Shown here: positions 2,812 to 35,081 of the stretch, piece after piece
How the letters are laid out: each line of letters opens with the position of its first letter
Position numbering within the stretch: the stretch's first letter is position 1
NCBI GenBank assembly: GCA_009602725.1
Contig: WELB01000055.1
Span: 703,574-748,594 of the forward strand
Direction of reading: 5' to 3'
From: Spirogloea muscicola
Taxonomy: Eukaryota; Streptophyta; Zygnematophyceae; Spirogloeales; Spirogloeaceae
Length of the DNA stretch: 45,021 nucleotides
Notes under the pieces: generated by a model
Database searches by the model: none
What the model was told of the DNA's origin: nothing
The model's input: the letters and a program-made list of their open reading frames with translations, nothing else
Position numbers and translations under genes: made by a program

Positions 2812-3110
2812 CTGGCCATGGACATCCATGGGTGTTACGGGGGTCGGTGGTCCTCGTTACTTTCGCTGCTGGCCTCTCAAGCTGACCAGCGGCGCCGGGA
2901 GCAGGGTGCTGCCCTTCCCGGTGGCTCGGTGCCTTTGGGTCTGGTGTCCTGCTACCGTATGCGACTGTCTATGTCCCTGCAGCGCTCCCAAGCGCTTGCT
3001 TTGCACCGCCGCGCTGGTCGCGCCCTTGCAGCAGCCTCTGGCTTGCGCAGCGGGGTTGCTCTTCCTCCCCTCAGCTCATCTGACTTCCTACTGCTGACAC
3101 GGGGGTATTG
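2812..3110 (+). mobile_element. Retrotransposon ORF 3' fragment ending in LLLTRGY-stop
   Basis: About 97 codons on the plus strand encode the C-terminus of the same protein family as the copies at 8833-9530 and 13264-14104. Shared features are a degenerate DIHGCYG (compare DVHGALG), MRLSMSLQRS, ALHRRAGRALAAASG and a final SDFLLLTRGY before the stop. It is 5'-truncated and has lost the zinc-knuckle and nuclease-like parts. The usual tail is not obvious directly after the stop, although a variant tail motif (CATCTGGCTGGCA and ATATCAGCAGCCGC) lies at 3157-3212 and is repeated at 12528-12575. Confidence 0.8.
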
Positions 3111-3724: not shown

Positions 3725-4215
3725 TACCTATGGACCTTGTCCATTCTCTTACTTATTTCTCAGGACTTGCGTCTTCTTTTATCCTGAATATACATCTCGA
3801 TCATTCTAACATGGGATTGCTTTTATTATTTTACGGAGGAGTTTCCTTTCTTCAAAGATAACCTTTCATAACTATCTCTTTCCTGGGCCGGCCGGTCACA
3901 GCTATCGCCATTTACTGGAAGAGTCCTCCTTTCACAGCCATTGCCTTTGTTCGGAAAGGTTCATTGATCATTCTTCGATGTGCTGGCCTGTCACAGCCTC
4001 GCCCCCTTTGAAATCCAGCTGCAAATTACATCAGATTACTACTGAGCTCCCCTCCGCTGTAGTTTCGTGGATAGCTGTGTGGTTGAGGCGCCTTCCGGCT
4101 CTTCGGACCTTGTCTTTTCTTTTTGGGCTGGCCTTTCTCAGCCACTGCCCTAAGTTGGAAGAGCTATTCCTTAGGAAGAGCTGCCTCTGCTTCTTCCACA
4201 GCCATAGACCTTCAG
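3725..4215 (+). repeat. Cluster of degenerate element tails
   Basis: At least three diverged copies of the tail motif follow each other on the plus strand. The first, near 3731, begins GGACCTTGTCCATTCTC. The second, near 3882-3925, has GGGCCGGCCGGTCACAGC followed by TTTACTGGAAGAG. The third, near 4104-4170, has GGACCTTGTC, then GGGCTGGCC, then CAGCCACTGCC. A fourth partial copy lies near 3980. None is attached to coding sequence. From 4220 to 4757 I see nothing I can name. Confidence 0.65.
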
Positions 4216-4757
4216 ACCGAACCACAAGCGGATCCTGAGGGCGTGCGCGTCTAACAACACTGGGTTCTACCATGCCGCAGAAGACGTTTCTCTCCTGCGG
4301 CTGCGCAGCTCATGTCCCTCTGAAGTACAGCCTCAGCAAGTCGACCACCTGGCAGCGTTGCCAGATTGGGAACTATGAAAAATGCCGCTGACTTTACATC
4401 GACCTTAGTAGAGACAGCAGCTTAGTCATGGATTTGTACAGGAGGCAAACGCCTCAACCACCATAGACCAGGTACAGCAGCTCGGGCTGGCAGGAGGCAC
4501 AGATATTACTGGTTGTCTTTGAGAATGCCAAAATCTCCAGGAAGGATGCGACTCTGATATCCCCAGTTTTGACACCGCTCGCAAAGAGGGCACTGCACCC
4601 CTTTGACTGTTGCAAATTTGATAAATTACTTGCGCCGCCACATCAGAAGAGCCACATAAAAAACCCCGCTGTAGTGAGCCCCATTGTGAAATTCTTGCAA
4701 TGTTGCGATTGAAGCTGCGCCCTACAATGTAATGTAGCAAGTAATGTAACCATAGCA

Positions 4758-7700
4758 TTATATGTACTTTACAAGTCCTCGTCCCTCGAGGCTAATCTTC
4801 TCAGCACGCATGCTCTTCTTCCTCCCTGACTTGATCTGCTGCATCTTCTTCTTCAGCTGCATGTCAATGACCAACAAACGATATTCGTTAAGCACCATCA
4901 CCTACTCCCATTCACACGATGTTTTCTACGAGATGCAGCAGCTCAAATGCAGCATCACGGATATGCGGACCATCTAGGGGCACTGTGCAAGAACTTTGCA
5001 TTAGACAAAGCAACTTATTGTAGAAGAGGCGACTTCATGAGACCCACCTTGGCGTGGAGAGCGTCCTTTTGGCGATCTTGTGCGGCTTGGCGTTGCTCGT
5101 CCTTCAAGCGGGACTCCGGCCTCACCGCAAAGTCGAGTGCAATCTTCTCGGGCACCCTGGCGTGGATGTAGTACCCAGGCTGGCCGGGTTTGGGCTCCCT
5201 GCCGTAGGTTATGTAGATTTTTAGATGTGCTTGCCTTTGTACCTGGCCATTTGGCCTACATTTCTTTCTAATACACGATCTCTTCCTGCCGTACAAAGCA
5301 GCAACCATTAGGAAGGCAGATCATGCAATCTCATGTTCCTCTTCCTTCCCTATCCCCTCTGATTCAAGCGTGTCAAGCCAAATTAAAGCATGTCAAGCGA
5401 GTGTGCAATGTATCATGAAAAGTATTGCACATCAACATTACTTGCAGAAGGACTCACCCTGTGTTCGCATCCAGGTCAAGGTCGTCGCCCCCTCTGTGGG
5501 TAACATCAAGGTCAGTCCTGCAAAACCATGTGCAAAAGAGGCACATAATACAGACCCGTTAGTGACAGCAAGCACAAATGCGCTTGCTTAAGAATCATGC
5601 TAAGCTTAGTATAGACAATTACTGGAAAATCTGCCTTTCACCTCTGCACAATTTTGTCTTTACAGACAGCTTTGCTTCACTCAACACAATGACGTAACCA
5701 AGACGACAACTTTGGCAGGCAGCGCCCATATGTGTAGTTAGTGAACCTACTGTTGCTGAGGCTTGCGCTTCGGCATTGGCCTATCTATGTCATCCTTTCG
5801 AAGATCCTCCCAGCGGGTGCTCTTTTGAAAGATCGGACGGCTCTGCAAGAAGTGGATAGATGCAACAGACGCTGTGATCAGCGTTCTTGGTCGCGAGTAC
5901 ATCCCTCTGAGGTGGCCGCACGACAGTAGAGCTTCTCCTTTACTGATCATCTGCAAACACAAGTAGGATTGCCATAGAGGTACTTACCCACTTCTGTACA
6001 AGGTCATTGGCTATTCTCCTGTTTGCTGGTATCTCATCTGGAACTCTTGACAAGAACATCACCACCTGCTCATTGTCCAGAAACAAGTCCCATCGCCGCA
6101 CAGTTCCAACACCAAAATCCGATCAGCTCAACTGCACTCCTGCTTTCAAGCCTGCATCCTAGTCTTACAAGGTTGCGGTGCAAGATGAGCAAAAGCTTCA
6201 CTCCAGCTCCTAGGCAAGCTCCTAGGCAAGCTCCTCCTGCTTACGAGTCTGCATCCCTTGTCTTACGGGTGATGAGCAGAAAGCATTGCTCAAAGCCATA
6301 CCTTCCCTAGGCCGCTTTTCTTCAGCTGCTCTCGTCTTTCATATAGCTCCACATCAATAGGCAACTACAAGAGTGCAGAGGGCACAGAGCATGAGCTCCA
6401 GCATTCTCTCGGCCAAGACTCAGCTTGATCAACTATGTCCAAAACGACAAGGCTCAGTATATGAAGCATACAGATGTCTGCAAGTTTATAAGGAGCCACG
6501 ACCTCTCCTGACTATAAGAATTGGCACGTTTGCTAAGTGGGTTTGGCTAACCCATGAACAGCTTTTGGGCTGGTTCAAGCGGAATACAGGTACAGATACT
6601 GCGAGGAGCACAAGATATGGTCAATGGGGCGCTGATTGTCCAGCGTGCTTAGGTGGCAGAGCAGAGGTGCAGCTTACATCAAGCAGGAGCTTGAGGACCA
6701 CTGATCGCGTATTGATGTTGGGGAGGGAGCCATCAGGGAGAGGCTCCAGCCAGTTCTTGAGCACCGTCAGTATACCGCGGTCAAGAAACTCCTGCTGCAG
6801 GAGCCGTCTGTTGGCGCGCGTGCAGCTCCAGGCAAGGCAGTGTAAGTAGACCATACTCGTCAGGCTTCTGTACTAAGCAAGTCTTGAATGTGATAATGGC
6901 TGCTGCTGCCAGGGATGGCAAAACTCAATCTGCGACGAGGTCTGTGAGACTAAGAGATGACGCTCTTGGCAATGCAGGACAGCATCGAGGTGACTGCTGG
7001 CTCCATCCAGAGTACAGGTGTGCGCCGCTCACTTGTCGAGCACGGTCTTGAGCTCCGGCAGCATGCGCAGCTTGTGCACGGCCGGCTCCCCCCGCCGGTT
7101 CGCGTCGGCGTCCTCCTCGGCCGCCACCTCCAGCTTCGTCATGAACTGGTCGACGAGCATCGCCGTCTCCTCGGCCGTGCGCTCGCTGCGCTTCCGCCGG
7201 CCCTTGCCAGGCTTGAACATGCGGCCCAGGTCGTCGTCGTCGTCCTCCTCCTCCTCGGCCTAATACCATCACCCAAAACCCAAATGCTCACATAATTGTC
7301 TCGCCTTGACAGGACCAAATCCCCAAAATGGAACAAAGAGAAGTATGAACTCGGCCTAACACCATCACTTACACCTTAATGACCCACTACCCAAAATGGA
7401 ATGAAGAGACATACGACCTCGTTGATTTGATTAACAATTCATTCCTACAATGTACCTCCTTGGCCTTGGCCTAGCACCAGCCCTTATACCTCTCCTCGTG
7501 CTCACACATTGGTCTGGCCTTGACAGGACCCAACTCCTAATTGAACTAACAAGAATCACTAAGTCGTTGATCTAAATCACAGCTTGTTCCTACAATGTAC
7601 CTCCTCAGCCTGCGGAGCGTCGCCGACTGGCGAGTGGTCCCCATCGCCGTCATCGTCGGCGTAGCCCTCCACGGGCTCCACGCCCTCGTCGTCGATAAAG

Positions 7701-8044
7701 TCGTCGTCAGCGGCCGTCCGGGGGCCCTCCTCGTCGTCCTGGTCAGCACAGAGTCAACGCACCGTGCAAAGGCGAGTCAGCAAAGCTGACCAAATATGAG
7801 ACAGTGCTTGCGGCCTCGAAGTCCGAGGAGTCGAGGGTGGACAGACTCAGCGACGACTCGGGGGGTTCTTGACTGCCAGAATCAGCGGCGAGAGCACCTC
7901 GGATTCGCGGCCGACGACTTGCTCCCACATCTCCTCCTCGCCCTTCCCGGCCGGCGCCGCCACGGCAGCGCTGCCACCGCTGCGGCGCTGGCGCCGGCCA
8001 GCCGTCGCCGCCGANGCCGCCGACGCCAGCTCTGCGGCGGCCAT
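4758..8044 (-). CDS. IWS1: Transcription elongation factor IWS1/SPN1
   Basis: Ten exons on the minus strand: about 8044-7803 (uncertain), 7738-7601, 7259-7033, 6807-6678, 6364-6302, 6065-5988, 5842-5751, 5493-5458, 5198-5048 and 4856-4758 (TAA). The protein starts with an acidic, disordered part (FIDDEGVEPVEGYADDDGD), then has a segment typical of IWS1 (FKPGKGRRKRSE, VAAEEDADANR). The TFIIS N-terminal-like domain follows, with LTVLKNWLEPLPDGSLPNIN, LKKSGLGK, RPIFQKSTRWEDLR, and the C-terminal ISLEGRGLVKY. IWS1 binds SPT6 and RNA polymerase II in the nucleus and acts in elongation and mRNA export. All internal phases fit. The start is doubtful: the ATG at 8044 is in a different frame from the end of exon 1, with an N at 8015 between them. 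The last intron but one (5199-5457) shares its 3' end with a repeat at 13047-13122. Confidence 0.92.
5204..5281. repeat. About 77-bp repeat copy in an IWS1 intron (matches 13047-13122)
   Basis: Both places carry GTAGGTTATGTAGATTTT, then GTGCTTGCCTTTGTACCTGG, then CCATTTGGCCTACATTTC, then TTTCTAATACACGAT, differing at very few bases. In IWS1 the similarity runs, on the minus strand, right up to the 3' splice site CAG of the intron and stops at the exon. Confidence 0.9.
8015..8015. other. Single ambiguous base (N)
   Basis: An N lies within a CCG-rich stretch of the putative first IWS1 exon and is the likely site of a hidden insertion or deletion. Confidence 0.95.
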
Positions 8045-8149
8045 AGCTGCCGTCTCAAGCGCGGGGGGGGGTGAGGCGGCAGGTAGCCGAAGCCCTTTCT
8101 TGATAGATTTCAATTACTGAACCACCGCGGCTGCTGACGTTAATGGCCT

Positions 8150-8260
8150 GCTCCGCGTCAAGGATTTCCGTCGCGGCATTTCCTCCGAGAGCTCCCCGTC
8201 CACGCTGTCTGGCGGAGAAGCCGCGCTATCTGCCGGACAAGCAGCGCGCGAGAAGAAGAG
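8150..8260. repeat. Element-associated segment repeated at 12600-12690 and 14438-14470
   Basis: The string CTGGCGGAGAAGCCGCGCTA followed by TCTGCCGGACAAGCAGCGCG recurs with small changes near 12630-12675, and its second half near 14443-14468. It is not part of the RT C-terminus described below, so it belongs to another part of the element or to a second element. Confidence 0.7.
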
Positions 8261-8832
8261 CTCGCCCATAGAGAAGAGGGGCTGGCAAACCCCTCTTCTC
8301 CATACGAGCACTCTCTTTAAAATAAGAAGAAAGTGCTCGTCCATTGAGGATAGAGGCTGGAAAAGCCAGCCCAAAAAAGAATGAACAGAGTACGAGAAGG
8401 GGGCCAGGGGAAGTGCTAAGAAAAACAAGCACACAAAGAAACAAGGCAGCTACGAATCACTCAGTAACCCCTGCTAAGCAGAATGGACAACGTCCAAAGC
8501 CGAAGAAAGAAGTGCCAAAAAAGGACTACACCACAAAGCACGAGATAGTGCAGAGGGAGACTCAAATGGATGCTCAGTATCCACGTGTGAGCAACAGCAG
8601 ATCAGAGTAACTCGAAGCAGGAAAAGCGGCACTCTGCTGAGACCCGGAAGTAGCAGCCATAGCCCAGCCAGCGCACGCGTGGACCGCATGAGCCAAAGAA
8701 GAAAGTGCTCGCCCATTGAGGATAGGGGCTGGAAAAGCCAGCCCAAAAAAGAATGACCAGAGTACGAGAAGGGGGCCAGGGGAAGCGCTAAGAAAAACAA
8801 GCACATAAAGTAACAAAGCAGCTACGAATCAC
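8260..8832 (-). mobile_element. Stacked retrotransposon 3' ends (tails), minus strand
   Basis: Read on the minus strand, the tail of the 8833-9530 copy (8832-8700) ends with GGGCGAGCACTTTCTTCT. It is followed at once by a truncated coding end (SYSDLLLLTRGY, stop near 8608), a second kind of tail (about 8607-8485), another first-kind tail (about 8480-8330) and a further fragment (about 8330-8260). The hairpin GGGCTGGAAAAGCCAGCCC lies at 8726-8744 and a version with one changed pair at 8354-8372. This is what repeated insertion of 5'-truncated copies into or behind older copies would produce. Confidence 0.8.
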
Positions 8833-9530
8833 TCAGTAACCCCTGCTAAGCAGCCGCAGATCAGAGATGCTAGGCTCCTGGAAGTGGGTCCCCTGGCCAG
8901 AGCCAGAGGCAGCAGCGAGGGCTCTCCCGTCACGAAGGTGCAGCGCCCGGGCCATAGACCTCTGCAGCGAGACGGCCAGGCGCATACGATACACTTGCGC
9001 CAGCGACCCGGCTGCAGGAAAGTCGACCGGCTCCCCATGGAAGCGACGGGCGATGGTGTGGCGGGCGAGCTGGGTGAGCAGCTCGAGCCACCGATCGCCC
9101 AGCGCCCCATAGGTGTCAATTGCCAACGGGAAGAACTCATCTTCCCGCGGATGGTCGGCGTACTTGAGCTCTTTAGCCCGGGCGGCGCAAGCGACCGCAT
9201 ACCCAACCTCGATGGTACACTGGGCTGGGTGTGAGCGGTCGTATGCGTCGGCGTCACCACGTCCAGGAGAAGACGTGGCCCGCCGGCCTGTGGGGTGGCC
9301 ACCAGGTCTCCGCGACGGGCGTGGAGACCGTTGGCCCTTTCCTGGAGCGGCATGACGCCGGAGTGCTCCGCTGCCACCGAGAAGCCAGCCTCCACCAGGA
9401 TGCCATGCACCGCATCGCGGAGGCGGTCGTGGGCCGCTGTCCGCTCGCGGCCATGGGCGCTGTTGCGAGACCGCCAGCCTCATCTGAAAGACCTGCGCGA
9501 GGGAGCCGGCAGCATCGAAGCCTTGCGAAC
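8833..9530 (-). mobile_element. Non-LTR retrotransposon ORF C-terminus, younger copy
   Basis: The coding part on the minus strand carries, in order, HGILVEAGFSVAAEHSG, LHARRGDLVAT, GGPRLLLDVVT, a lysine-rich AKELKYADHP, FFPLAIDTYGALG, MRLAVSLQRSMARALHLR, GRALAAASGSGQG and the final SDLRLLSRGY (stop at 8833). The R-x-D...LDV...K pattern resembles the restriction-like nuclease of R2-type elements; the D of the first part follows ARRG here. A frameshift separates the first part (about 9410-9250) from the rest (about 9240-8833), so it is a pseudogene. It is nearly identical to the copy at 13264-14104, so both are fairly recent. Confidence 0.8.
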
Positions 9531-10467
9531 CCGGCCTGATGCTTGATGGCCTCCCGGGCAAGCCGCTGGAGGAGATGCAACCAGAAACTGCCGAAAGCCC
9601 CGTGTACATCAATGGCCAGTGCCGCGAAGGCATCGCCTGGAGGGTGGTCAGAGTACTTGCGCTCCTTACTCCGAGCCGCCAAAGCGACTGCGTGCCCAAC
9701 GAGCGTCGCCGACTTCGCGGGGTCGGCCGAATCAACGCAATCTGCAGTCACCACATCAGCGGTGGTAGGTGGACCTCCTCCGGAGCTCCACCACCTGGTC
9801 ATAGGCCGCTTTGTCCACAAGCGCAGTGTAGCGGGCCTGGGCCCGCAGGTCGGGGGTGTGCGCAAGGTGGATAAACGGAACGACCTGCTTCGACATGTCT
9901 TGGGCCGCCGGGAGCGCGTCGCGGGCAGCGCGGAGAGCAGCAGGGCAACAAGCCGCTCTCCACTTCAGCTACCACCCGCTCCAAGGTGCGGATGCCGTGA
10001 GCTAGGAACCGCCGGCTGATGGGTGCGGCGACCTGGGCCCAGCCGCACAGGTAGGCGGCCTCGCAGGCGCGGGCGACGGGGCGGCAGCCCAGACCGCCGC
10101 GACTAACAGGCAGGCTAGCCTGGAGCAACGCGGCTGGTGTGGTGAGGAAGCCGGGGTGTTGCAGGAGAGTGGCAGCGCTCGCCAGAATGTCAGAGTCAAA
10201 AGCCGCGTACGCCGCCTTCACCGCCGGGGAGGGAGGGAGGACGCGGGCCAGGTAGTGCGGACGCTGGGCAACGCAATGCGAGAGGCCCGCCATGGCGCCC
10301 GGCCGCCCGCGCCTGCGCCCGTCGCCGCTGGCGGTCTCTGCGGACCTACGGCTGCTCAACAGGGATATGGGCACCCAGTGGGGCCACTTGACTCGCGCTG
10401 TGTGCTTCAATGCTTTTCTAGCCCCTTTCGAACTCGTTTTAGGCTGGCCAATCACAACCATCAACAT
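9254..10467 (-). mobile_element. Older retrotransposon copy, RT C-terminal region, interrupted
   Basis: The minus-strand frame at 10467-9900 carries a reverse-transcriptase C-terminal (thumb or linker) pattern: HYLARVLPPS, LPVSRGGLGCRPVARACEAAYL. At 9800-9540 a second copy of the late domain follows (VGHAVALAARSKERKYSDHP, FAALAIDVHGAFG). At about 9480 the sequence switches into the middle of the younger copy, giving two late domains in a row. The RT palm with its catalytic aspartates is not in the window. Several frame changes show it is dead. Confidence 0.7.
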
Positions 10468-10479
10468 CGTACCCCACGC

Positions 10480-10735
10480 GCGGGCTGGCCGTGCTATGGC
10501 TGCTGCTTCCGGGTCTCGGCAAAGTGCCGCTTCTCCTGCTCCGAGTTACTCTGATCTGCTGTTGCTCACACGTGGATACTGAGCAGCCATCTGCATCTCC
10601 CTCTGCACCATCTTGCACTTCGTAGTGTAGTCCTTTTTCAGCACCTCTTTCTTTGGCTTTGAACATTGTCCATTCTTTTTGGGTTGGCTTTGCCAGCCCC
10701 TCTTCTCAATGGGCGAGCACCTTCTCCTGGCCGTG
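10480..10735 (+). mobile_element. Retrotransposon 3' end with second-kind tail, plus strand
   Basis: A short coding end (RAGRAMAAASGSRQSAASPA, then SYSDLLLLTRGY and stop at 10582) is followed by a tail matching the minus-strand tails at 8485-8607 and 12360-12510. The hairpin at 10681-10699 is GGGTTGGCTTTGCCAGCCC, where a T:G wobble replaces one pair. This copy faces away from the minus-strand copies to its left. Confidence 0.8.
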
Positions 10736-11110
10736 GATGTGCATGGGGCTTTCGGGTCCGAGTGGTGGCTCGACCTGTTGGCCCGACTTGCGCGACGCGG
10801 CTTTTGCTCTTCTAAAATCAGCCGCCGCATTTTTTGTGTCCCGCAGGCGAGGTGAGCAGGCTGCCTTCAATGCCGCTGGCTCATTAGCTCAGGTCTATTG
10901 GATGCGCCTCTCAATCTCCTCTAGCCCCTCTTCTCTATGGGCGCGCACTTTCTCTTATCTCCCTCGAGCGGTCTATGGCCCACGCCTTGCACCTGCGTGC
11001 TGGCCGTGCTTTAGCTGCAGCCTCTGGCTTTCGTCAGGGGGAGATGTCTAGCGGCTGCTAGTTATCTCGCATTTGCGGCTCCTCACTCGGTTAATAAGTG
11101 ATCCATCCTA
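10726..11110 (+). mobile_element. Degenerate retrotransposon fragment
   Basis: Directly after the preceding tail, LAVDVHGAFGSEW begins the late domain of another 5'-truncated copy. The frame breaks repeatedly, but GSLAQVYWMRLSIS and a GARALAAASGFRQG-like stretch can be followed in other frames up to about 11060. Confidence 0.7.
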
Positions 11111-11144
11111 CACAAGCTCTGAGACAGCGCTTATTGCCCCTTTG

Positions 11145-11790
11145 GACCTTGTCAATCCTTTTCGGGCTGGTTGTTCACAGCCAGCGACCTCCTCAGAGAT
11201 GCCATGTTCGGCATTTTGCTGGAGGCGGGGTACACTGGCATTAGGGAATACTTCTGTTATGCCCATCCTGCAGAAGGCGGGTGAGCTGCACACTCGGCGC
11301 GTCGACTTGGTGGCCTCCATGCCGGGCGGCGGCCTGCGCGTCATTGCAATATTGCCACCATTGATGTGGTGGATCAGTCCAATCCGGGGCTTTCTGCCTC
11401 GAGGGCTGGCCATGCTGTGGCAAATCCCGCTCGCAGCAGGGCGGCAAAACCTGCAGACCACCCGGCTGGGGACGAGTTCGTACCCCTGGCCGTGGATGTG
11501 TACGGGGCACTGAATCCGAGTGGCTTGACCTACTAGTCAGGCTTGCGCGGCGCGCTGTGTCCCGCAGGGGAGGTGAGCAGGCTGACTTCAACGCCGCTGG
11601 CTCAGTAGCCCAGGCATGCGCCTGTCCGTTTCCCTTCAGCGGCCCATGGCCCACGCCTTGCACCTGCACCTGGCCGTGCTCTCGCTGCAGCCTCTGGCTT
11701 TCGTCAGGGGGATTGCATTCAGGCAGCTAGTCTTTCAGATATGCGGCTCCTCACTCGTGGTTATCAAGTGGTTCAACGTACCCCAGTTTT
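11145..11790 (+). mobile_element. Retrotransposon fragment with nuclease-like domain remnants
   Basis: Preceded by a tail (GGACCTTGTCAATCC and GGGCTGGTTGTTCACAGCC near 11151-11185), this copy shows remnants of the LHARRVDLVA motif, the DVVD...AGHAVA...AKPADHP stretch, EFVPLAVDVYGALN, and ends with SDMRLLTRGY read through into QVVQRTPVLR. Frame breaks are frequent. Its last part forms the left arm of the long inverted repeat. Confidence 0.7.
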
Positions 11791-12215
11791 GAGATAGCCC
11801 TTTGTAACTTGGCCCCTTCGAACCTCGTCAATTTTTTTCGGGCTGGCTTCTTCACAGCCCTTGCCCCCTTCTCAACCACAACCATGGCCCTCTACTGGAA
11901 GAGTCATCATTCCTCGTTTCTCTGGAACTCTGCTCATTCGTTGTCTTGGGCTGGCACCCAATGGGGGCAAGGGCTGTGAGAAGCCAGCCCGAAAAGACTT
12001 GACAAGGTTCGAAGGGACCCAACTACGAAGGGGCCAGAAGCGCTATCTCAAAACTGGGGTAGGATGAATGACACAATAACAACAAGTGAGGAGCCTCGAA
12101 TCCGACAGACTAGTCGTTGGAAAGCAATCTCCCTGACGAAAGCCAAAGGCAGCAGCGAGAGCACGGCCAGCACGCAGGTGCAAAGCGTGGGCCACGATCG
12201 CAGCCATCAAGAAGT
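11640..12215. repeat. Long inverted repeat of two retrotransposon 3' ends
   Basis: The left arm (about 11640-11875) and right arm (about 11958-12215) are reverse complements with moderate divergence, separated by about 80 bases. Paired landmarks are TACCCCAGTTTTGAGATAGC (11779-11798) and its complement near 12036-12062, and CGGGCTGGCTTCTTCACAGC (11839-11858) and its complement near 11970-11990. The arms are tail-to-tail 3' ends of the same element family. Confidence 0.85.
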
Positions 12216-12345
12216 GCGCGCCCATAGAGAACAGGGGCTGGGAAAGGCCAGCGCAAGAAAAGAATGAACAACGTGCGAAAGGGCCAGGGGTAAAGCTAGC
12301 ACATGTGGAATCAAGCAGCTAAGAAACACTCAGTAACCCCTGCTG
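12043..12345 (-). mobile_element. Retrotransposon 3' end, minus strand, with tail behind an older tail
   Basis: On the minus strand a tail (about 12345-12230, hairpin core GCTGGCCTTTCCCAGCCCC) runs into VAHALHLRAGRALAAAFGFR and SDSRLLTCCYCVIHPTPVLR. The RGY-stop has been lost by mutation, as in the plus-strand partner at 11790. It forms the right arm of the inverted repeat. Confidence 0.7.
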
Positions 12346-12510
12346 AGCAAGAAGAAAGTGCTCGCCCATAGAGAAAAGAGAATGGCAAAGCCAGCCCAAA
12401 AAGAGCGGACAATACCCAAAGCCAAAGAAAGAGAAGCCAGAAAAGGACTACATTACAGAACACAAGACGATGCAGAGGGAAGCTCGGTACCCGCGAGTGA
12501 GCAACAGCAG
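12345..12510 (-). repeat. Second-kind element tail, minus strand
   Basis: Read on the minus strand it starts with LLLTRGY-encoding sequence, contains CTTTGGCTTTGGGTATTGTC and GGGCTGGCTTTGCCA, and ends in TATGGGCGAGCACTTTCTTC. It matches 10560-10720 (plus) and 8607-8485 (minus). One strand of the hairpin has decayed. Confidence 0.75.
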
Positions 12511-13035
12511 GGCCAGTGGATCATTCCATGCATCTGGCTGGCAGTTTACAGCCGATTCTTCAATATCAGCAGCCGCCAGTGGAAGGGCCGTCGCCCCTCC
12601 TCTGGAAAGAGTTCGTCTCCACCCCTCCGCGCTGTCCGGCGGAGAAGCCGCGCTCCCTGCCGGACAAGCAGCGCCAAGAGAGGCGCCCGCCGCTGCCGCC
12701 GTGGACGTACATTCAAGCCTGTGTATTCTTTTGTTCCGGGCTGGCCAATCCAGCAATTCGCCCCTCCCCTGGAAGAGGACTCTGCTTCAAAACATTGCCA
12801 ATCTAGGCTACACTCGACGTGCAGATGTGTTTCCGGCTGAGATGGGCTTGCCAGCTGCATATTTGTCGCTCTTGCAACGACGAGTTTCGGCCTGTTTGCA
12901 GCGTGCTCAGGCTAGTGCCTTGCACCAGAAAGCTGGACGAGCTCTAGTAGGTGGCAGAAGGGCTCCGTTCCTGGCATCTAGTATTCATGCATCGAGTAGT
13001 GACCTTTATGTTTTGACCCGTGGTTATTGAGCGGG
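12510..13035 (+). mobile_element. Mosaic of tail variant, repeat segment and ORF 3' end
   Basis: At 12528-12575 lies the tail variant shared with 3157-3212. At 12630-12690 lies the segment shared with 8200-8250. At 12735-12790 another tail-like motif occurs (CCGGGCTGGCCAATCCAGC). From about 12840 a coding end follows (GLPAAYLSLLQRRVSACLQR, ALHQKAGRAL) and finishes with SDLYVLTRGY, stop at 13028-13030. This end is more diverged than the other copies. Confidence 0.65.
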
Positions 13036-13046
13036 TCAATCTGCTG

Positions 13047-13122
13047 TAGGTTATGTAGATTTTAAGATGTGCTTGCCTTTGTACCTGGCCATTTGGCCTA
13101 CATTTCTTTCTAATACACGATG
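13047..13122. repeat. Repeat shared with the 3' end of an IWS1 intron
   Basis: This segment lies between the stop codon region of the preceding fragment and the end of the next minus-strand tail. It is nearly identical to 5204-5281. On the minus strand it ends in CCTACAGCAG, equivalent to the IWS1 3' splice site CCTACGGCAG. Confidence 0.9.
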
Positions 13123-13134
13123 CCTCCTCCACTG

Positions 13135-14104
13135 GAAGAGTAGAAGAAAGTGCTCGCCCATTGAGAATAGGGGCTGGAACAACCAGCCCGAAAAAGAATG
13201 AACAGAGTACGAGAAGGGGGCCAGGGGAAGCGCTAAGAAACAGACAAAGCAGCTATGAGACACTCAGTAACCCCTGCTAAGCAGCCGCAGATCAGAGATG
13301 CTGGACTCCTGGAAGTGGGTCCCCTGGCCAGAGCCAGAGGCAGCAGCGAGGGCTCTGCCGGCACGAAGGTGCAGCGCCCGGGCCATGGACCTCTGCAGCG
13401 AGACGGCCAGGCGCATTCGATACACTTGCGCCAGCGACTCGGCTGCAGGGAAGTCTACCGGCTCTCCGTGGAAGCGCCGGGCGATGCTGTGGCGGGCGAG
13501 CTGGGTGAGCAGCTCGAGCCACCGAGCGCCCAGCGCCCCATGTGTGTTGATGGCCAACGGGAAGAACTCGTCTTCCCGCGGATGATCCGCGTACTTCAGC
13601 TCTTTGGCCCGAGCAGCGCAGGCGACCGCATACCCAGCCGTGGTGGCACAGTTAGCTGGGTGTGAGCGGTCATAGGCATCAGTAGTCACCACGTCCAGGA
13701 GAAGACGTGGCCCGCCGGCCTGTCCGGTGGCCACCAGGTCTACACGCCTAGCGTGGAGACCGTCGGCCCTGTGCTGGATTGGCATGATTCCGGAGTGCTC
13801 TGCTGCCACGGAGAAACCAGCCTCCAACAGGATGCCATGCATTACGTCGCGGAGGTGGTCGTCGGCCGCTGTCCGCTCTCCGCCGTGGGAACAGCGCAGA
13901 ACATGAGCAGCCAGCTCTCCAGGCTCGGTCCCGCGCTCGCCACACTCACATTGGCGCACACCCTGGAGACATGGCGGCAGCAGGCCCAAGAGCCGGTGGA
14001 CGGCACTGCGGAATACCTCGTCCGGGAGGGTGAGGGCGTCGTTGAGGGGGAGGGCCTGGAGCCTGGAAGAGTCCGCTGTGCCCTCCCGCGCTGTCTGGCC
14101 GATA
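13135..14104 (-). mobile_element. Best-preserved retrotransposon ORF C-terminus with tail
   Basis: A continuous minus-strand frame (14104 to the stop at 13264) gives about 280 residues. It begins abruptly behind another tail, so the copy is 5'-truncated. Order: a CxC...HxxxC zinc knuckle (CECG...AAHVLRC), HLRDVMHGILLEAGFSVAAE, LHARRVDLVAT, GGPRLLLDVVTTDAYD, AKELKYADHP, FFPLAINTHGALGARW, MRLAVSLQRSMARALHLR and SDLRLLSRGY. R-x-D, L-D-V and the lysines fit a PD-(D/E)xK (restriction-like) nuclease as in R2-type elements; this is an inference from motifs. The tail follows at 13263-13135, with hairpin GGGCTGGAACAACCAGCCC at 13171-13189. Confidence 0.8.
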
Positions 14105-14435
14105 AGAGGAAAAAGAAGAAAGTGCTCGCCCATTGAGAATAGGGGCTGGAACAACCAGCCCGAAAAAGAATGAACAGAGTACGAGACGGGGGCCAGGGGA
14201 AGCGCTAAGTAACAGAAACAAAGCTGCTACGAGACACTCAGTAACCCCTGCTCGAAAAGCCAGCCCAGAAAAGAATCACCAAAGGACGAGAAGGGGGCCA
14301 GGGGAAGCGCTCAGAAAAACAAGCACACAAAGAAACAAAGCAGCTACGACTCACTCAGTAACCCCTGCTAAGCAGCCTCAGGTCTGAGACGCTAGGCTCC
14401 TGGAAGTGGGTCCTCTGGCCAGAGCCAGAGATAAG
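14105..14435 (-). repeat. Two stacked element tails and a coding end, minus strand
   Basis: On the minus strand, a coding remnant (LALARGPTSRSLA in a shifted frame, about 14435-14385) leads to a tail (14380-14260). This is cut off within or just after its hairpin and followed by a second tail (14250-14105) with the intact hairpin at 14143-14161. Confidence 0.75.
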
Positions 14436-14530
14436 TCGTGCTATCTGCCGGACAAGCAGTGCGCGCGCCTTGAGAGGCCCGCCATGGCGCCCGGCCGCCC
14501 GCGCCCGCCGCCGCCGTCGCCGGCGGCGGC
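14436..14530 (-). mobile_element. RT-domain fragment bordering the gap
   Basis: The segment GAGGCCCGCCATGGCGCCCG (14474-14493) and what follows is nearly identical to 10281-10330 in the RT C-terminal region (GRPGAMAGLS on the minus strand). The apparent ATG on the plus strand here is therefore more likely element sequence than the MGAT2 start. Confidence 0.65.
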
Positions 14531-14929: not shown

Positions 14930-17076
14930 CCGGCGCAGCAGGAGCGGGGGCCGCCGCCGCCGCCGGACGGCAGGGGCGGGTTCACGTACGGCGGCTACGC
15001 CATCCCGCCCGCCAATGCGCGCTCCGCGGCGCTCGCGGAGTTCAAGCGGCGGCCGCCCATCAACCAGGTGCGCCGCCGCCCCTCCGCCAGTGGCCCTCCC
15101 TCCCTCCCTCCTCTCCTCTCCTCCCGCTCTCCCTCCTCCCTCCTTCTGAAACCCACCCCCCCCATCTCCTCCCTCCTCCCCTGCTTCGCTCTCCCAGTCT
15201 CCACCTTTCCTCCCGCCCACATGGGCGCCCTGGTGGCCGCTGCAGGACCTCTTCCCATCTCTGGCTCCCGACCACGTCGTGCTCGTGCTGTACGTGCACA
15301 ACCGCCCACATTACCTGCGCCCGATTGTCGACGCGCTTGCCAACGTGGAGGGCATCAGCGAGACGCTCCTGATCATCAGGTGCGCAGATTCAATGTCTCG
15401 GGCTCGGGTCGCTAGCCTGTCTGAGGGTCCACGACACGTGCAGGCTGGTAGCGCGTCAACACCCGGTTTCCTCCAGCCCTCCTCTCCTTACCATACCTTG
15501 CCCAGTGGCTTTGCCTTTTGGTGCCACCACGAGGGCAGGAGGCTGACGAGGAGGGAGAGAGGGCTGGGACTAGAGAAGAGGGGCAAGAGAGGCCCGCATT
15601 TGCTGCTACCGTTGGCAGATATGGTCTCTGAGTTGCGGCGCTTGTCAGATTGCGGATGATCGAGTGAATGGCTAAGGCTTTAGGGTCAGAGTCTGGGCAC
15701 TCAACGAGTCTTGTGGACAGTATGTACTCGAGTCTGCCACCGCCGCTGACGCCGCACAGACGCGCGCTGGGCGGCGGCCGGGCGCGGTGGCGGTGGCAGC
15801 CACGACGGGCAGTACGACGAGGTGGACGCCATCGTGCGCAGCATCCGGTTCTGCCAAGTGAAACAGATCTATGCCGAGTTCTCGCCACACCTCTTCAAGG
15901 CCGGCGTTGCCGGGGAGGGGTCGGTGGCGACCTTTCCTGCAGAGGCCCTCGATGACTGCCGTGATGCTGCAGACCACGAAGCGCGTCCCGGCTGCCACGG
16001 CAACCCAGACCGGTACGGGCACTACCGCGAGGAGCGCATTGTGTCGCTCAAGCACCACTGGTGGTGGCTCATGAACACCGTCTGGGACGGCCTCCCTGGT
16101 GAGTTCCAGAGATTACATATAGGCTTATGTTCACCCGAGTAATAAGACTTGAGTCTTACTTCACAAGCTGGCAAAGGAACAGCATCAGCAGCAAACTGCT
16201 GCACTTGGACTGACATTGCTAACCATTTCTAGAGGCTCAACCTGACAACGACGGCACTGATCTGGCTAGAGCGCAGATAGAGGAGGGAGCCACGTAGGCA
16301 GCAGCACTGATAGCCTACAATGCCTTCCCTTGCATGCTCTGGTGCAAGGTGCAGAGTAGACATCTCTTGTTGCACCTGCCATCTCTCATCCTTCATGCTC
16401 TGCTCACGTGTTGCCTCGTGTTGCGACCCTCGCAGAGACCGCAGGCTTCGGCGGCCACATGCTGTTCTTCGAGGAGGACCACTTTCTGTTCCCCAATGCG
16501 TACCACAGCGCTCAGGTGCTCGCTGACCTCAAGGCTCCGCTGTGCCCCTACTGCATCGCCTTCAACCTGGCACCCTTTGATGTGAACTCGCGTGGCGAGC
16601 TAGCACCTGCGGGCCGCCTGGTGGCCGCCAAGATGAGCAACGTGGGCTACGCCTTCAACCGCACCTTCTGGGATGTGCTGCGGGTGGCGGCGCCAGCCTT
16701 CTGCAATTTTGACGACTACAATTGGGACATCACAATGTGGACAGCCATTGCGCGCATACTGCCGCACCGCCACTCGCTGCGGGCCGCACGCTCGAGTGCT
16801 GTGCACCTCGGCAAGTGCGGCCTGCACCAGAAGGCCGGCCTGTGTGGCAGTCCTGGCGACCAGCTGGAGTTGCCTACAGTTGAGGACGCCGACCTCGTGC
16901 CATGGGTGGCCAGCGCTGCTGACGTCACAGATGTCAAGCAAGAAGTCGTACCGGCTGGCGATCCCGCCTTCCAGGGCTACGGTGGCTGGTCAGATCGTCG
17001 CGACCGCGAGCTCTGCCTCTACATGGCGCAGATGTACCGGCGTTCACAGCCACAGCTGCAATTGACACATCACTGA
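14930..17076 (+). CDS. MGAT2: Alpha-1,6-mannosyl-glycoprotein 2-beta-GlcNAc-transferase (GnT-II), 5' partial
   Basis: Readable exons: 14930-15067 (5' incomplete), 15246-15379, 15800-16098 and 16436-17076 (TGA), giving 403 residues. In the Golgi the enzyme adds GlcNAc from UDP-GlcNAc to the alpha-1,6 mannose of the trimmed N-glycan, directly after mannosidase II. Visible motifs are DHVVLVLYVHNRPHYLRPI, SHDGQYDEVDAIVRSIRFCQ, ERIVSLKHHWWWLMNTVWDG, the EED-type metal and sugar-nucleotide site LFFEEDHFLFPNAY, FDDYNWDITMW and HLGKCGLHQ. The 3' splice site at 15799 was chosen because it alone restores IISHDG in frame. The N-terminal cytoplasmic tail and membrane anchor are missing in the gap. The gene converges on the mannosidase II gene with 85 bp between stop codons, so the 3' UTRs almost certainly overlap. 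Confidence 0.93.
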
Positions 17077-30215: not shown

Positions 30216-33200
30216 ATGTCGACGCTGGAGATCGAGGCCCGGGAGTGAGCACGACGCCCGCCGCGGACGCGCCATGGACGCGCCATGGACGCGCCATGGA
30301 CGCCACTTGGCGCTGCATTCGCTGCAGCATGACGCGTCTGATGGCTGACGGCGGCGGTGGCGTGCAGCGTGATCAAGGTCGTGCTGCAGTTCTGCAAGGA
30401 GAACTCGCTAGCGCAGACCTTCCAGACGCTGCAGGCGGAGTGCCAGGTGTCGCTCAACACCGTGGAGAGCCTGGAGCCGTTCCTGGCGGACGTCAACCAC
30501 GGGCGGTGGGACGCAGTGCTGCCGCAGGTCGCGCAGCTCAAGCTGCCTCGCGCTAAGCTCGAGGACCTCTACGAGCAGGTATATATATGATAAAATATCT
30601 ATTTTGAAATGTAGATACAAATGGCGTGCTGTAGGAGCTCCTCACCCTGCCTTTCTCGCTTGTCCACGTATCTGTCATCTAGCTCTCCTGGTATCAGGTT
30701 TCCGTTTCAAGAGTGCTTGCAGTGTTTGCTGAAGGTAGCCGCAGTAGCTGCATTGTGGATCTCGTATGCCCAACTTGGGCGATGCTGGTCAGCTGTCTCC
30801 TGCTCAAGGATTTCCACTTTTTCCCAGTTTTCCACTACTTCAGTCTGCTGCTAAATGTTACTCAACACCAGCAAGGCTATCCGTCTTGCGACCTTCAGAT
30901 TGTGCTCGAGATGATTGAGCTGCGGGAGCTGGACACGGCGCGAGCCATCCTGCGGCAGACGCAGGCCATGGGCCACATGAAGCAGGAACAGCCGGAGCGG
31001 TATCTGCACCTGGAGCACCTCCTGGTTCGGACTTACTTCGACCCCCGAGAGGTATGAGACTTCCATACTGCACTACTTTGTGAGTGTGCTGTCACCTTGC
31101 CTCCTGACACGCTAGTAATAGTAGCAAGGATTGTCAGCTGTGCCAAGATCGATGCCACCTTGACAGCCCATCCCAAGTTCACCAAACTTAACTGCGCTTG
31201 TTAGTAATTGCAGGTCACGTGATGCTAAACTTGGGGTCATCTCCTACTTCTTGCTTAGCCTTCAGTTTAGGAGTATGCCTTCAGTTTAGGAATGTGGTGA
31301 GTATTGGCAGTAAGAAGCACAACCATTCTTTGTGCCGTGTCTTGCCAGGCCTACCAAGACTCCTCCAAGGAGAAGAGGCGTGCACAAATAGCTTTCAGTG
31401 AGCGCCTCCTGACCTTGTGATGACTCCACAAATTTAGACTTTGAGCCTCATGCTCAGCAGCGTCGTAGTGTGGCAGTTGTTACGGTCTGTTTTGAGTATC
31501 AGACGGAAATGCAAGCAGACTGGATCTGTCCAATATTTTCAATCTCAAGCGAGGTAGTGACTACAATCACCGAGCCAGGGGCTTAAGGGAGCCTGCCGCA
31601 AATGTCCGTGATCATCACTTCTGACCTTCTCATCTTCGTGCACTGTGGCGTTAACAGGCTTGTCGCAAGAGGTCACTGTGGTGCCACCGTCGCGCCTCAT
31701 GGCCCTCATTGGCCAGGCTCTTAAGTGGCAGCAGCACCAAGGCGAGACATCTGTCCTTCGCTGCACTTTCTGGCAATAGAGCTATTGCACCTTGACGAAC
31801 TTGATCTAGAGTTTGCGCTTTTTAAGTAACCAGTGCCAGTAGCCAACTGGTAAATGACATCCTGTGACTTGTGGTACATACGATTGGGATTCGAAGTAGC
31901 CTTCCTGGGGCCGCCCAGTACGTCCCAACCTTGGCGCTTGGGGTTCAGTGGAGCCCATGAGAGTTGATACGAGAGCTTATGTACAATTTGCTACAATTGC
32001 CATCTCATGTGCAGGCCTCCTGCCTCCGGGAACCCAATTTGACCTCTTCCGAGGTGCAGCAGCTGTAAAGATGGACGAGGAGGAGACCTTCCCCACACAA
32101 GTCATGCACAACATCAAGGTCGGCACATGGATCATGCAACCCTCGCTAGTTGCATTCCGCTGGATCTCAGAATTAACAAGAAAGATGAGGTTATGCATAA
32201 TTCAGCGCACTTTGACTTTACCAAAGTAGCATAGCTCTACAGCATTCAGATTTCTTGGGACCTTGTGTGCTGCCTCAGTATGCCTCAGTCAGAGATCTCC
32301 TCAATATGACGCAGTTTGGTAAGAAGAGCCACCCGGAGTTTGCCAGCTTTTCGCCAGATGGCCAGTGCCTTGTCTCCTCCTCAGTGGATGGCTTCATCGA
32401 GGTGAGTCTGCTAGTAGAAGAGTCAGGCTTGGAGAGGCCTGAAAATAGTCAGTTATTACATTGCAAATCACTGCTGCAGTAATGTAACCATCTCTCCGAG
32501 GCACGGCAGGCCTGTACTCCTCTTCAGTGTTTTTGGGCTCTCAACTTGACGCAGGTCTGGGATTACGTAACAGGAAAGTTGAAGAAAGACCTGCAGTATC
32601 AGGCCGATGTAAGTCCTGATCTCAGCTTCTAAAGCTGACCAAGTGTTCACATCCTCAGAAGCTACATATCCAGCAGGGCCCACAATCACTTCAGTGGTGT
32701 CAGCTCTCTTGGTACATGGACCTGCAGTGTGTTCAAGGTGCCTAAAGCTGGCAACAAATTCACGCCAGCTGCCTTGCTCTGCGCTCTCCATCCCGCAGGA
32801 CTCCTTCATGATGCACGAAGAGGCTGTGCTGTGCGTGAATTGGAGCAAGGATTCAGAAATGCTCGCATCCGGCTCTCAGGATGGAAAAATTAAGGTAGCA
32901 ATGCCAACTCAGTTCCAACGGCATTGTGCATTGTAGCACGGCCAGTTTTGAGGAGCTTATGGCCTCAGGACTCAAGCAACAGTCTGCTAGTGCTAGACCT
33001 GCTCGACCAGCTTCTCCTGCAGTATCTATTTCTCCACGGGTTTCTGTTGTGAAGTGCATGAAGACTAGCTTCTGCAACTACAATGCTTGCTCAGATTGTA
33101 TGGCTTGAGCCCTTGCCAGGTCTGGCGGCTGAGGACAGGCCAGTGCTTGAGGCGGTTCGAGAATGCGCACTCTCAGGGAGTTACTTCCATCTGCTTCTCT

Positions 33201-35081
33201 CGGGACAGTTCCCAGCTCCTCTCTGCCTCATTCGACACCCTTGCCAGGTCGCAAGCCATTCCCTGTGCTGCACACCTACTTTTATACTGCATATTGTCTT
33301 GCTTATGGATAACATTGACACTGAAATTGTCTACCTGAATATCTCAGACACTCATTCAAGTATGAAAGAGCACAAGCAGATGTCCTGCTCCACTGCTGCC
33401 TTTTCCATGTCTATCTGTGCATGCATATGTGGAGGATGCCACTGTGCTTGTCTCATGTCTTGCTTTTACCTCCTTGCTTGCAGAATACACGGCCTCAAAT
33501 CGGGCAAGACCTTGAAGGAGTTCCGTGGCCACAGTTCCTATGTGAATGATGCTATATACACGAGCGATGGAGGGAGAGTCGTCACTGCGTCCAGTGATGG
33601 CACTGTAAAGGTAATGTGCCTCCAAGACAAGGATGCTGAAGCCATGTTGTTTGTCCAGCACAAGGCCGCCACTGCTTGTCAACTCACTCCCTTTGTCACT
33701 GCTTGAGAGTACCTCTGTGTTGCAAGTAATGGGTGTTTTGTTCCTCAGTGCTGATTCTGGATCAGGCTAAGCTTGGCCTGCGACCTCCCTGCAACCACTT
33801 GCATAGTGACAGCTGAGCTACAATTGGCAGGTCTGGGATGCCAAGAGCGCAGACTGCGTGCAGACATTGAAGCCCCCACCACCTCTACGGGTAACGGATA
33901 GGGGACTCATGTCATGCCCACAAACCATCTTCGATACTATTTACACCTAACTCTCCAGAGCCCTGGAGCATCACTGATTGCTAGTTTCAACTTTATCGTC
34001 ATTCAATGTCCAGATTGCACCCCAGGCATTATTTTGTTGGCAACAAGTAGTTGCTGTGCTGCTTGGGGCAGCCACCGCTGGAGGTCACTGTTATATGTGG
34101 CTCAGATTTTTGATGTCTTGCCAGTGACTTGCAGGGCGGGGATGCTACTGTCAATTCTGTGCATGTGATGCCCAAGAATCTGGACCACATTGTCGTTTGC
34201 AGCCGCTCTTCCACCATCTTTGTCATGACACTGCAGGGACAGGTGTTTGTAGGGCAAATTGCTGCATTGCTCAAAGTCTCGTGCTCTCATTGTTGGCCAG
34301 TATTGAGCTTGGGTGCTGCGTGCCGTGCACTCTCCTGTGAACAAATATAAGTGTTGTAAGCTCTGTTGTAGTATCTACCTTGTGAGCTGCTGTCACAGCT
34401 TGCAGCTTGGCGGTGCTTCAACTGGTCGACTCATACCCTTCAGCTACTACTTCCTCGCACAGGTGGTGAAGAGCTTCTCATCCGGCAAGAGAGAAGGTGG
34501 CGACTTTGTTGGGGCGTGCGTGTCACCAAAAGGCGACTGGTTCTATTGTGTAGGAGAAGACAGGTGATGCGCTGGCTGACCCTCTTTCACCAAGTCTGAC
34601 ATTACAGCTCTAAGACTCTTACATTGAGAATTGCGCTTGCATAGTCTGGTCAAATGGTATGTATTTTGGTTGCCTCTCATGTCTTGCATCGGTTGTGCTT
34701 CATGATGCGCAGAAACCTGTATTGCTTTGGCTACCAGTCTGGAAAGCTTGAACATCTCATGAAGGTAAGCATTAAACAGCAATACACTGAGCAGGATCAA
34801 GTTGATTAATTGAGGTGTGGAAAGTTGCAGCTGAGCCTGGTGCTTCTGAAGGCCAGCTACATCTGTAAGCTGCATTGATAGGAGCATTGCTGCTACCGTG
34901 CTGTATCCTAAACCATGAATCGCGAGATTCATATGTAAATTCTTTTCTATATGCAACCTTACTCTGGCGGGTACCCTCACAGATTCACGATAAGGAGGTC
35001 ATAGGCGTGGCGCACCACCCACATCGGAACGTCCTTGCGTCTTATGGCGAAGATCCAGTCCTCAAGCTTTGGACCACTTAG
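30216..35081 (+). CDS. SMU1: WD40 splicing factor SMU1
   Basis: Sixteen exons: 30216-30244, 30368-30578, 30899-31051, 31349-31397, 31658-31741, 32015-32118, 32315-32401, 32555-32608, 32799-32894, 33120-33247, 33484-33610, 33831-33890, 34135-34242, 34463-34563, 34713-34764 and 34983-35081 (TAG). The 513 residues match the plant length. The N-terminus [10 protein letters not shown] leads into a LisH/CTLH region ([30 protein letters not shown]), then a linker with [12 protein letters not shown], then about seven WD40 repeats ([67 protein letters not shown] by homology, [11 protein letters not shown]). SMU1 works with RED in spliceosome activation in the nucleus. Intron 5 starts with GC (CAAG|GCGAGA). 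Intron 1 has an 11-bp tandem repeat (GACGCGCCATG, about three copies, 30269-30303). Confidence 0.96.

Follow-up and report, generated by a model that had tools for sequence, protein, structure and literature searches.

An island of 5'-truncated R2-like retrotransposon copies in Spirogloea muscicola and a partial insertion preference for the 3' ends of relatives

3' Termini and Element Copies at the Locus

In this study, we analysed the last 45 kb of contig C55 (the window) of the Spirogloea muscicola genome assembly (153 Mb, 471 contigs), in which several related types of 3' ends of non-long terminal repeat (non-LTR) retrotransposons lie on both strands within 8249-14472. We believe, with a probability of roughly 0.7, that this island arose by the nesting of 5'-truncated insertions from several related R2-like non-LTR families, which favour the 3' ends of older relatives. 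The related 3'-end types are called E (that of the young element), F2, F3, F4, and F5, and these labels are our own.

The terminus pattern ATGGGCGAGCACTTTCTTCT, allowing 3 mismatches of 20, marked seven clear 3' termini in the window, all inside 8325-14133, and was found in none of 100 window shuffles (searched with the reverse-complement form AGAAGAAAGTGCTCGCCCAT) and none of 50 island shuffles. Five termini belong to minus-strand elements (8325, 8697, 12350, 13142, and 14114) and two to plus-strand elements (ends at 10728 and 10956). The initial annotation had counted at least nine 3' ends on both strands; both strands are indeed occupied, but nine is reached only by adding about three degraded termini read by eye near 8252, 8300, and 12207. 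It had also placed each copy directly behind the previous 3' terminus, which is true of four of the seven: termini 8697, 10728, 10956, and 12350 pass within a few nucleotides into related sequence of the same orientation (identified partly by eye after 10728 and 10956). Terminus 13142 is followed by a target duplication and then by a relative in the opposite orientation, terminus 14114 by about 50 nt of other sequence before the next copy, and terminus 8325 by tiny fragments; the sequence trailing 10956 is the interrupted target and not a later copy. The copies had been assigned to one family. Identity to the young element was 97% at 13142-14063 and 94-99% at 14114-14274, but the other island copies were only 61-84% identical and had different 3' untranslated regions (UTRs), so several related families are present.

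At the left edge, two degraded terminal fragments in inverted arrangement (8249-8324, by eye) include the remnant of a relative's 3' end, consisting of the right arm of a hairpin and the terminus. The pair at 8249-8322 is palindrome-like, with the hairpin right arm at its centre. Copy A (8325-8482, minus strand, blastn), a 3'-terminal fragment 84% identical to the young element, lies to the right of this remnant within the 3' end of an F2-type relative, the sequence of which breaks at GTCCATT on the 8483 side and resumes with the hairpin right arm and terminus at about 8299-8249. The body of the F2-type relative upstream of the hairpin (8483-8696, minus strand; 88% inverted match of 8480-8682 to 10474-10676) lies immediately next to the 3' terminus at 8697. 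The copy that ends there, copy B (8697-9470, minus strand, right end approximate) is a 5'-truncated E-family copy, 94% identical to 13244-13543 and 87% to 13685-13889. Its approximate end is overlapped by an older relative (9252-10296, minus strand), which extends in a broken frame from after the reverse transcriptase (RT) core to the endonuclease-type domain and matches the 1,299-aa element protein at 46-59% (tblastn).

On the plus strand, an F2-type relative ends in the 3' terminus at 10728 (10474-10728; repeat match, blastn, and terminus pattern), and the coding-region end and 3' UTR of an F3-type relative follow (10731-11880; repeat match, blastn, and tblastn at 38% over 11156-11764), with approximate ends and perhaps more than one copy. 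The F3 relative is interrupted by a 37-nt 3'-only copy (10920-10956, plus strand; by eye and terminus pattern), which is flanked by a 6-bp duplication ATCTCC at 10914-10919 and 10957-10962. The minus strand then carries an F3-type 3' fragment (11957-12194; inverted repeats and blastn), a 78% E-type 3' fragment (12205-12349; blastn) that starts immediately at terminus 12350, and the copy bearing this terminus, an F2-type 3' fragment (12350-12510; inverted repeats and blastn). The coding-region end and 3' UTR of an F5-type relative (12720-13141, plus strand, left end approximate), recognised by eye together with similar flanks in loci L049, L052, and L058 (by eye), are the target of the copy at 13142. 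This young 5'-truncated E copy (13142-14063, minus strand; E3193-4116, 97.4% by sequence comparison) has the target duplication ACTCTTCCAG, and its C-terminal 266 codons are open. A young 3'-terminal fragment (14114-14274, minus strand, blastn; 94% over 162 nt and 99% over the last 139) has its 5' junction in the hairpin loop of the next copy, a 78% older E-type fragment (14250-14472, minus strand; blastn and repeat match), the hairpin of which it breaks.

The Element and Its Protein

The copy at 13135-14104 was used as a genome query, as the initial annotation had advised, and 40 of 3,672 first-look candidates were scored. Full-length copies are about 4.1 kb long (L041, L042, L043, L045, L048, L050, and L051). 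The 18-mer GGGCGAGCACTTTCTTCT occurred 1,900 times genome-wide (943 and 957 by strand), and its reversed control 0 times. Compared with copy L022, 25 of the 29 other retrieved copies had an identity of at least 99.25%, and the window copy, L002, L004, and L005 had 97.3-98.7%. Family E is recently active. The 3' end was fixed among the compared copies to within 1-2 nt and consists of CTTTCTTCT without poly(A), and the 5' starts lay at many different places. With this fixed 3' end, the variable 5' truncation, target duplications, and an RT domain, the element is a non-LTR retrotransposon (LINE), which bears out its earlier description as a 5'-truncated element of this class.

L043 has a single intact open reading frame (ORF) of 1,299 aa. 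Its protein matched RVT_1 in Pfam (E = 7.9e-16), C2H2 fingers appeared only below threshold, and no APE match was found in Pfam at E up to 1. The best relatives in the PDB, and the only significant matches, were three R2 proteins (E = 6.8e-7 to 1e-6). The RT thus appears R2-like, as judged by PDB matches. The C-terminus has C-E-C-G...H...C from residue 1072, followed by R-V-D...L-L-L-D-V-V...K-E-L-K-Y at residues 1140-1191, and may correspond to a CCHC motif plus a restriction-like endonuclease (RLE) of the PD-(D/E)xK type, with which its residues are compatible. Among the seven diverged relatives spanning this region, four (L007, L008, L013, and L049) retained the R/L-x-D-like and D-V-V residues, one retained D-V-V only, and two were degraded. 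For an R2-type 5' ribozyme, Rfam gave no match of that kind at the L043 5' end.

A DNA transposon with long inverted repeats was considered for two loci, where outward-facing 3' ends are separated by about 5.45 kb, and was rejected because the other examined copies have scattered 5' ends. The unit of 5,451 bp is 99.98% identical between L042 (3671-9121, contig C20) and L050 (reverse, 4066-9516, contig C338). Its components are a 946-bp 3' end in inverted orientation, a stretch of 406 bp, and a full-length copy, and both of its ends are 3' termini. The flanks differ between the two loci, and those on C338 resemble inverted copies of each other. The shared unit may best be read as the product of an exchange between inverted pairs.

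Insertion Sites and Target Duplications

Fifty copies were found in the retrieved loci, and 39 were kept as insertion sites; of the 11 dropped, four fell short of the 3' end, one was below 96% identity, two were inner parts of composites, and four belonged to the 5.45-kb unit. One retained site, C195:89948, is half of a target that was interrupted, and another, C1:298148, has N upstream; for the composites L051 and L045, the 5' boundary was placed manually. By inspection, the flanks of all 39 listed sites were different. A flank repeat of at least 6 nt was present at 17 of the 39 sites, compared with a mean of 6.3 and a maximum of 13 in 300 trials of random re-pairing. Target duplications are thus real but short. 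At the 23 sites with a repeat of at least 5 nt, GG preceded the inferred nick at 7 (8% expected), and CTT followed it at 8 (2.5% expected), a figure that is too high, since the repeat can include the CT of the element itself.

A tiny 3'-only copy with the repeat CCTTATG lies beside L018 (by eye). Like the copy at 10920-10956, it starts at the hairpin right arm, as would be expected if reverse transcription halts at the hairpin. Since the 160-nt 3' end folded no better than shuffles (z = -0.91), the hairpin rests on the repeated stem sequence and the tiny copies and not on folding energy.

Preference for the 3' Ends of Relatives

Insertion in or beside the 3' ends of older relatives was far above chance, and mostly head-to-tail at short range. 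The motif set for relatives' 3' ends was built without the F5 3' end, so some sites were missed. A motif lay within about 60 nt of 14 of the 39 sites and of 113 of 1,473 background positions in the retrieved loci. The share was 5/289 in the window outside the island, 10/40 inside the island, 0/260 in L031-L040 (an unrelated background), and 1/337 in shuffled windows. With distance from the young copies it fell, the values being 44/162, 50/267, 22/281, and 30/349 at 66-300 nt, 300-800 nt, 800-1500 nt, and beyond, respectively.

The pattern searches covered the whole genome. Sense hairpin junctions, in which TTTCTTCT is followed within 9 nt by the hairpin right arm, numbered 44 for at least 5,875 right-arm sites, where about 1.1 would be expected at random (5,875 ends placed over 10 positions). 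There was one antisense hairpin junction for 4,466 sites (p = 3e-10 against sense), and three junctions at a site further up the 3' UTR for 2,137 (p = 4e-4 against the sense hairpin). The reversed control of the 3'-UTR-site pattern gave 2 matches, and the other pattern controls gave 0. A further pattern with 34 matches was left out of the counts, because 16 of these have CTAT immediately behind the tail letters and may be common variants of the terminal sequence. The letters after the stem in the 44 hairpin junctions were CTATCCTC in 23, CTCTTCTC in 16, CTATTCTC in 4, and CTGTTCTC in 1; in a hand count of 100 listed right-arm sites on contig 1, they were 37, 13, 48, and 0, respectively, plus 2 CTCCTC. 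E's own type, CTATTCTC, was the least targeted, and the E loop has TTGTT in place of CTTTT; age and loop sequence are confounded in this comparison. At G000:C107:437553-437626, two hairpin junctions with identical letters lie 42 nt apart, like a tandem array of the terminal 42 nt.

Among 115 ends on contig 1, the pairs within 200 bp were 8 on the same strand (head-to-tail) and 0 on opposite strands (0.6 and 0.55 expected), those within 500 bp were 13 and 3, and those within 1 kb were 20 and 9 (3.0 and 2.9 expected), respectively. Individual loci carry the same signature. In L029, a new copy (99.6%) sits in the hairpin loop of an older copy (88.7%) with its own repeat CTTTTCTAGC. The copy at 58813 in L053 was inserted at an older terminus (nested repeat TTCTTCTGAC), that at 369429 in L008 in the terminal 31 nt of an older copy (CTCAATGG), and that at 205254 in L056 in an older 3' UTR (TTCTTCTTAGC). 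These nested target duplications indicate independent insertions into older copies. Antisense insertions with a repeat were found in L048 (GAAACAAA) and L052 (GCTCTGC), both by blastn, and the window copy at 13142 lies antisense in the 3' end of the F5 relative (by eye). Insertions favour the 3' ends of relatives generally, including the hairpin loop, the terminal 31 nt, and the terminus, and the preference is clear but partial. The earlier proposal that the element prefers its own 3' end as target therefore stands as to the preference itself and needs widening as to its object, which is relatives' 3' ends in general, some of them in the opposite orientation. The initial annotation would have given up self-targeting had the other copies been mostly dispersed singletons with normal target-site duplications. 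Half of that picture was observed, since dispersal is the rule (61 of 100 sites on contig 1 lack a neighbour within 2 kb) and repeats of at least 6 nt occur at 17 of 39 sites, yet the self-preference is clear.

We propose that the endonuclease would nick short pyrimidine tracts flanked by G/C, and that the freed ...AAG-3' end would pair with the terminal CUUUCUUCU of the RNA and prime reverse transcription. The common 3' ends offer such tracts in the hairpin loop GG^CTTTTC and the CTTTCTTCT tail. Because the shared 3' ends carry pyrimidine tracts, older copies would be good targets, and with repeated insertion, islands would build up. Reverse transcription would often break off prematurely, in some cases at the 3' hairpin, so that fragments of about 36 nt remain. 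The islands are dispersed. GGGCTGGCTTTTCCAGCCCC is a candidate target DNA for the predicted strand-specific nicking at GG^CTTTT. As the copies of E are nearly identical and at least one has an intact ORF, a direct in vitro test would be feasible.

Weighing of the Explanations

Several observations weigh against this explanation. At 25 of the 39 sites no motif lay within 60 nt, and 22 of the 39 had no 6-nt repeat. The 14 of 39 sites with a motif were not significantly above the local share of 44/162 at 66-300 nt (p = 0.19), so the 60-nt test shows clustering and not exact targeting, and with a local background this high, it is the pattern counts and nested duplications that carry the claim at fine scale. 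The three pattern counts differ in the number of possible targets, and it cannot be told from the 44 junctions whether a copy entered an older hairpin or a tiny copy follows a terminus; both arrangements are insertion at a related 3' end. Antisense targets occur in L048 and L052 (blastn) and in L043, L047, and the window copy at 13142 (by eye), and nine tail-to-tail terminus pairs within 0-9 nt were found genome-wide, where 0.1-0.4 were expected. Clustering may be partly regional because opposite-strand pairs exceed chance at 1 kb. For the protein, the putative endonuclease part had no match in Pfam or the PDB, and a single-sequence structure model of the C-terminal domain was useless (pLDDT 35.5).

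A merely regional preference, by which open, gene-poor, or pyrimidine-rich regions are favoured with no recognition of related 3' ends, would account for this enrichment of opposite-strand pairs, for the relatives enriched on both strands to about 800 nt around young copies, and for inferred targets beginning with CTT in 8 of 23 cases, which is partly an artefact of tail overlap. A regional effect should show neither strand asymmetry nor a fixed position, whereas the junctions were 44 sense to 1 antisense and the pairs within 200 bp were 8:0 in favour of the same strand; we consider it improbable as the whole explanation. The dominance of same-strand head-to-tail pairs at short range could also come from template jumping, in which the RT moves from a finished RNA to the 3' end of another and makes a head-to-tail string in one event with no target preference. 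End-to-end template jumping by the R2 RT has been reported (by a title in the reference list of PMC2881922), and the L051 composite has one outer repeat, CTTTCCAG. However, the four nested copies at 58813, 369429, 205254, and L029 carry their repeats (TTCTTCTGAC, CTCAATGG, TTCTTCTTAGC, and CTTTTCTAGC) inside the older copy, and the two L029 copies differ in age (88.7% and 99.6%). The same spacer in L051 and L045 is more easily explained by a single read-through RNA than by two jumps, and older sequence on both sides of a new copy, as in L029, L050, and copy A of the window, is left unexplained, which makes template jumping an unlikely origin of the island.

Segmental or tandem duplication of a single insertion has examples elsewhere in the genome, in the 5.45-kb unit common to two loci and in the two contig 107 junctions 42 nt apart, which have identical letters like a short tandem repeat. 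For the island it was rejected, because its copies differ in family, truncation point, and divergence, the young island copy has its own 10-bp repeat, and several copies have their own nested target duplication; we regard it as very improbable. Repeated insertion into or beside the 3' ends of older relatives is therefore the explanation that we prefer.

Upstream Sequences and a Possible Promoter

Some copies brought upstream sequence with them. In L051 and L045, the full-length copy is preceded by the same spacer of about 187 bp and the 3' end of another E copy, and this upstream E fragment is cut at different points, E3687 and E3985, respectively. The whole L051 composite is bounded by CTTTCCAG, and in L045 the repeat is only CTTTT. 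In L048, the 17 nt directly before the element start, which lie within the duplication GAAACAAA, match the F4 3' end (L056 and L058) at 16 of 17 positions (by eye). These sequence arrangements would fit read-through RNAs begun in or above the 3' end of an upstream relative. Full-length copies also follow the left hairpin arm of an older copy in sense orientation in L042/L050 and an older F3-type 3' end in L041 (by eye), and in L043, 16 nt precede the element start.

Upstream 3' ends in two lineages hint that neighbours may supply promoters, by analogy with HeT-A. A possible but rather doubtful extension is that this R2-like element has no promoter of its own and that relatives' 3' ends serve as both landing pad and promoter, with pieces carried to new sites. 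If this is true, a HeT-A-like life cycle would have arisen independently in the R2 group, inside chromosomes.

Genomic Distribution and Comparison with Known Systems

The 100 listed right-arm sites of contig 1, a list that stops 3 kb before the contig's end, formed 78 clusters (2-kb joining) spread over 2.3 Mb, so such islands are common and dispersed. A neighbour within 2 kb was present for 39 of the sites and absent for 61. No array of at least three units of TTAGGG, TTTAGGG, TTTTAGGG, or TTGGG was found in the retrieved loci. Judged by this spread and the array search, a role of the islands at telomeres or centromeres, which the initial annotation had suggested, is not supported.

Element E shares with R2 and R2-like elements (the R2, R4, NeSL, CRE, and HERO clades) one ORF, an R2-like RT, motif-like C-terminal residues (C-X-C...H...C and then R-x-D...D-V-V...K...Y), 5' truncation, and the absence of poly(A). 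R2 proper inserts at one fixed 28S rDNA site, whereas the 39 E sites have differing flanks and the copies are dispersed. RLE-encoding LINEs mostly aim at one multicopy target. Studies have described RLE clades as mostly target-specific and HERO as containing many non-specific elements (PMC4640811), and non-site-specific R2-like elements have been described in the German cockroach (PMC7650587). Among the top results of our literature searches, with most subscription journals not covered, no R2-like element was described as favouring its own 3' ends. A dispersed R2-like family whose insertions are partly directed to 3' ends of its own and related copies would have another means of finding a safe, self-renewing target.

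Zepp and ZeppL of Chlorella, Coccomyxa, and Chlamydomonas have an L1-type ORF with APE and a poly(A) tail. Like E, in which the preference is partial, they insert in a nested manner into existing copies; for Zepp this is described as giving tandem arrays of mostly 3' ends (PMC8226300), and Zepp is described as L1-like with about one cluster per chromosome, probably at centromeres (PMC8226300, PMC3446292). In E, by contrast, Pfam gave no APE match, poly(A) is absent, and contig 1 by itself holds 78 clusters. The likeness to Zepp, which had cautiously been confined to arrangement, is thus rightly so confined, the RT being apparently R2-like, and E would parallel Zepp in an unrelated lineage. The GilM and GilT elements of Giardia are arranged head-to-tail. 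They are non-LTR elements of the CRE clade by RT (PMC10088271), CRE being an RLE clade (PMC4640811), and they are telomeric, whereas E is dispersed. For HeT-A, head-to-tail copies and a sense promoter in the 3' UTR, located before the next element, are described (PMC5537684). In the E lineages of L051/L045 and L048, 3'-end sequence of relatives likewise precedes the element start, but HeT-A adds to chromosome ends and E inserts internally. Self-nesting has precedents among unrelated elements, but here it is scattered through the genome instead of occurring only at chromosome ends or centromeres. Fossil islands of 3' ends can thus arise without a telomere or centromere role.

Other Features

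Loci L031-L040 hold ten RT copies with nearly equal profile scores, with open frames of 1,237 aa in nine and 1,172 aa in one. L033, the one that was read, is presumably Ty3/Gypsy-like, and the ten may represent another retroelement with recent activity. Beyond the island, the window also contains a C-terminal fragment of a further relative (50% protein identity) at 2812-3108. Pieces of host genes were found at 16408-17076, matching an MGAT2-type N-acetylglucosaminyltransferase (E = 1.6e-34), and at 33083-33706, matching a WD40 repeat protein.

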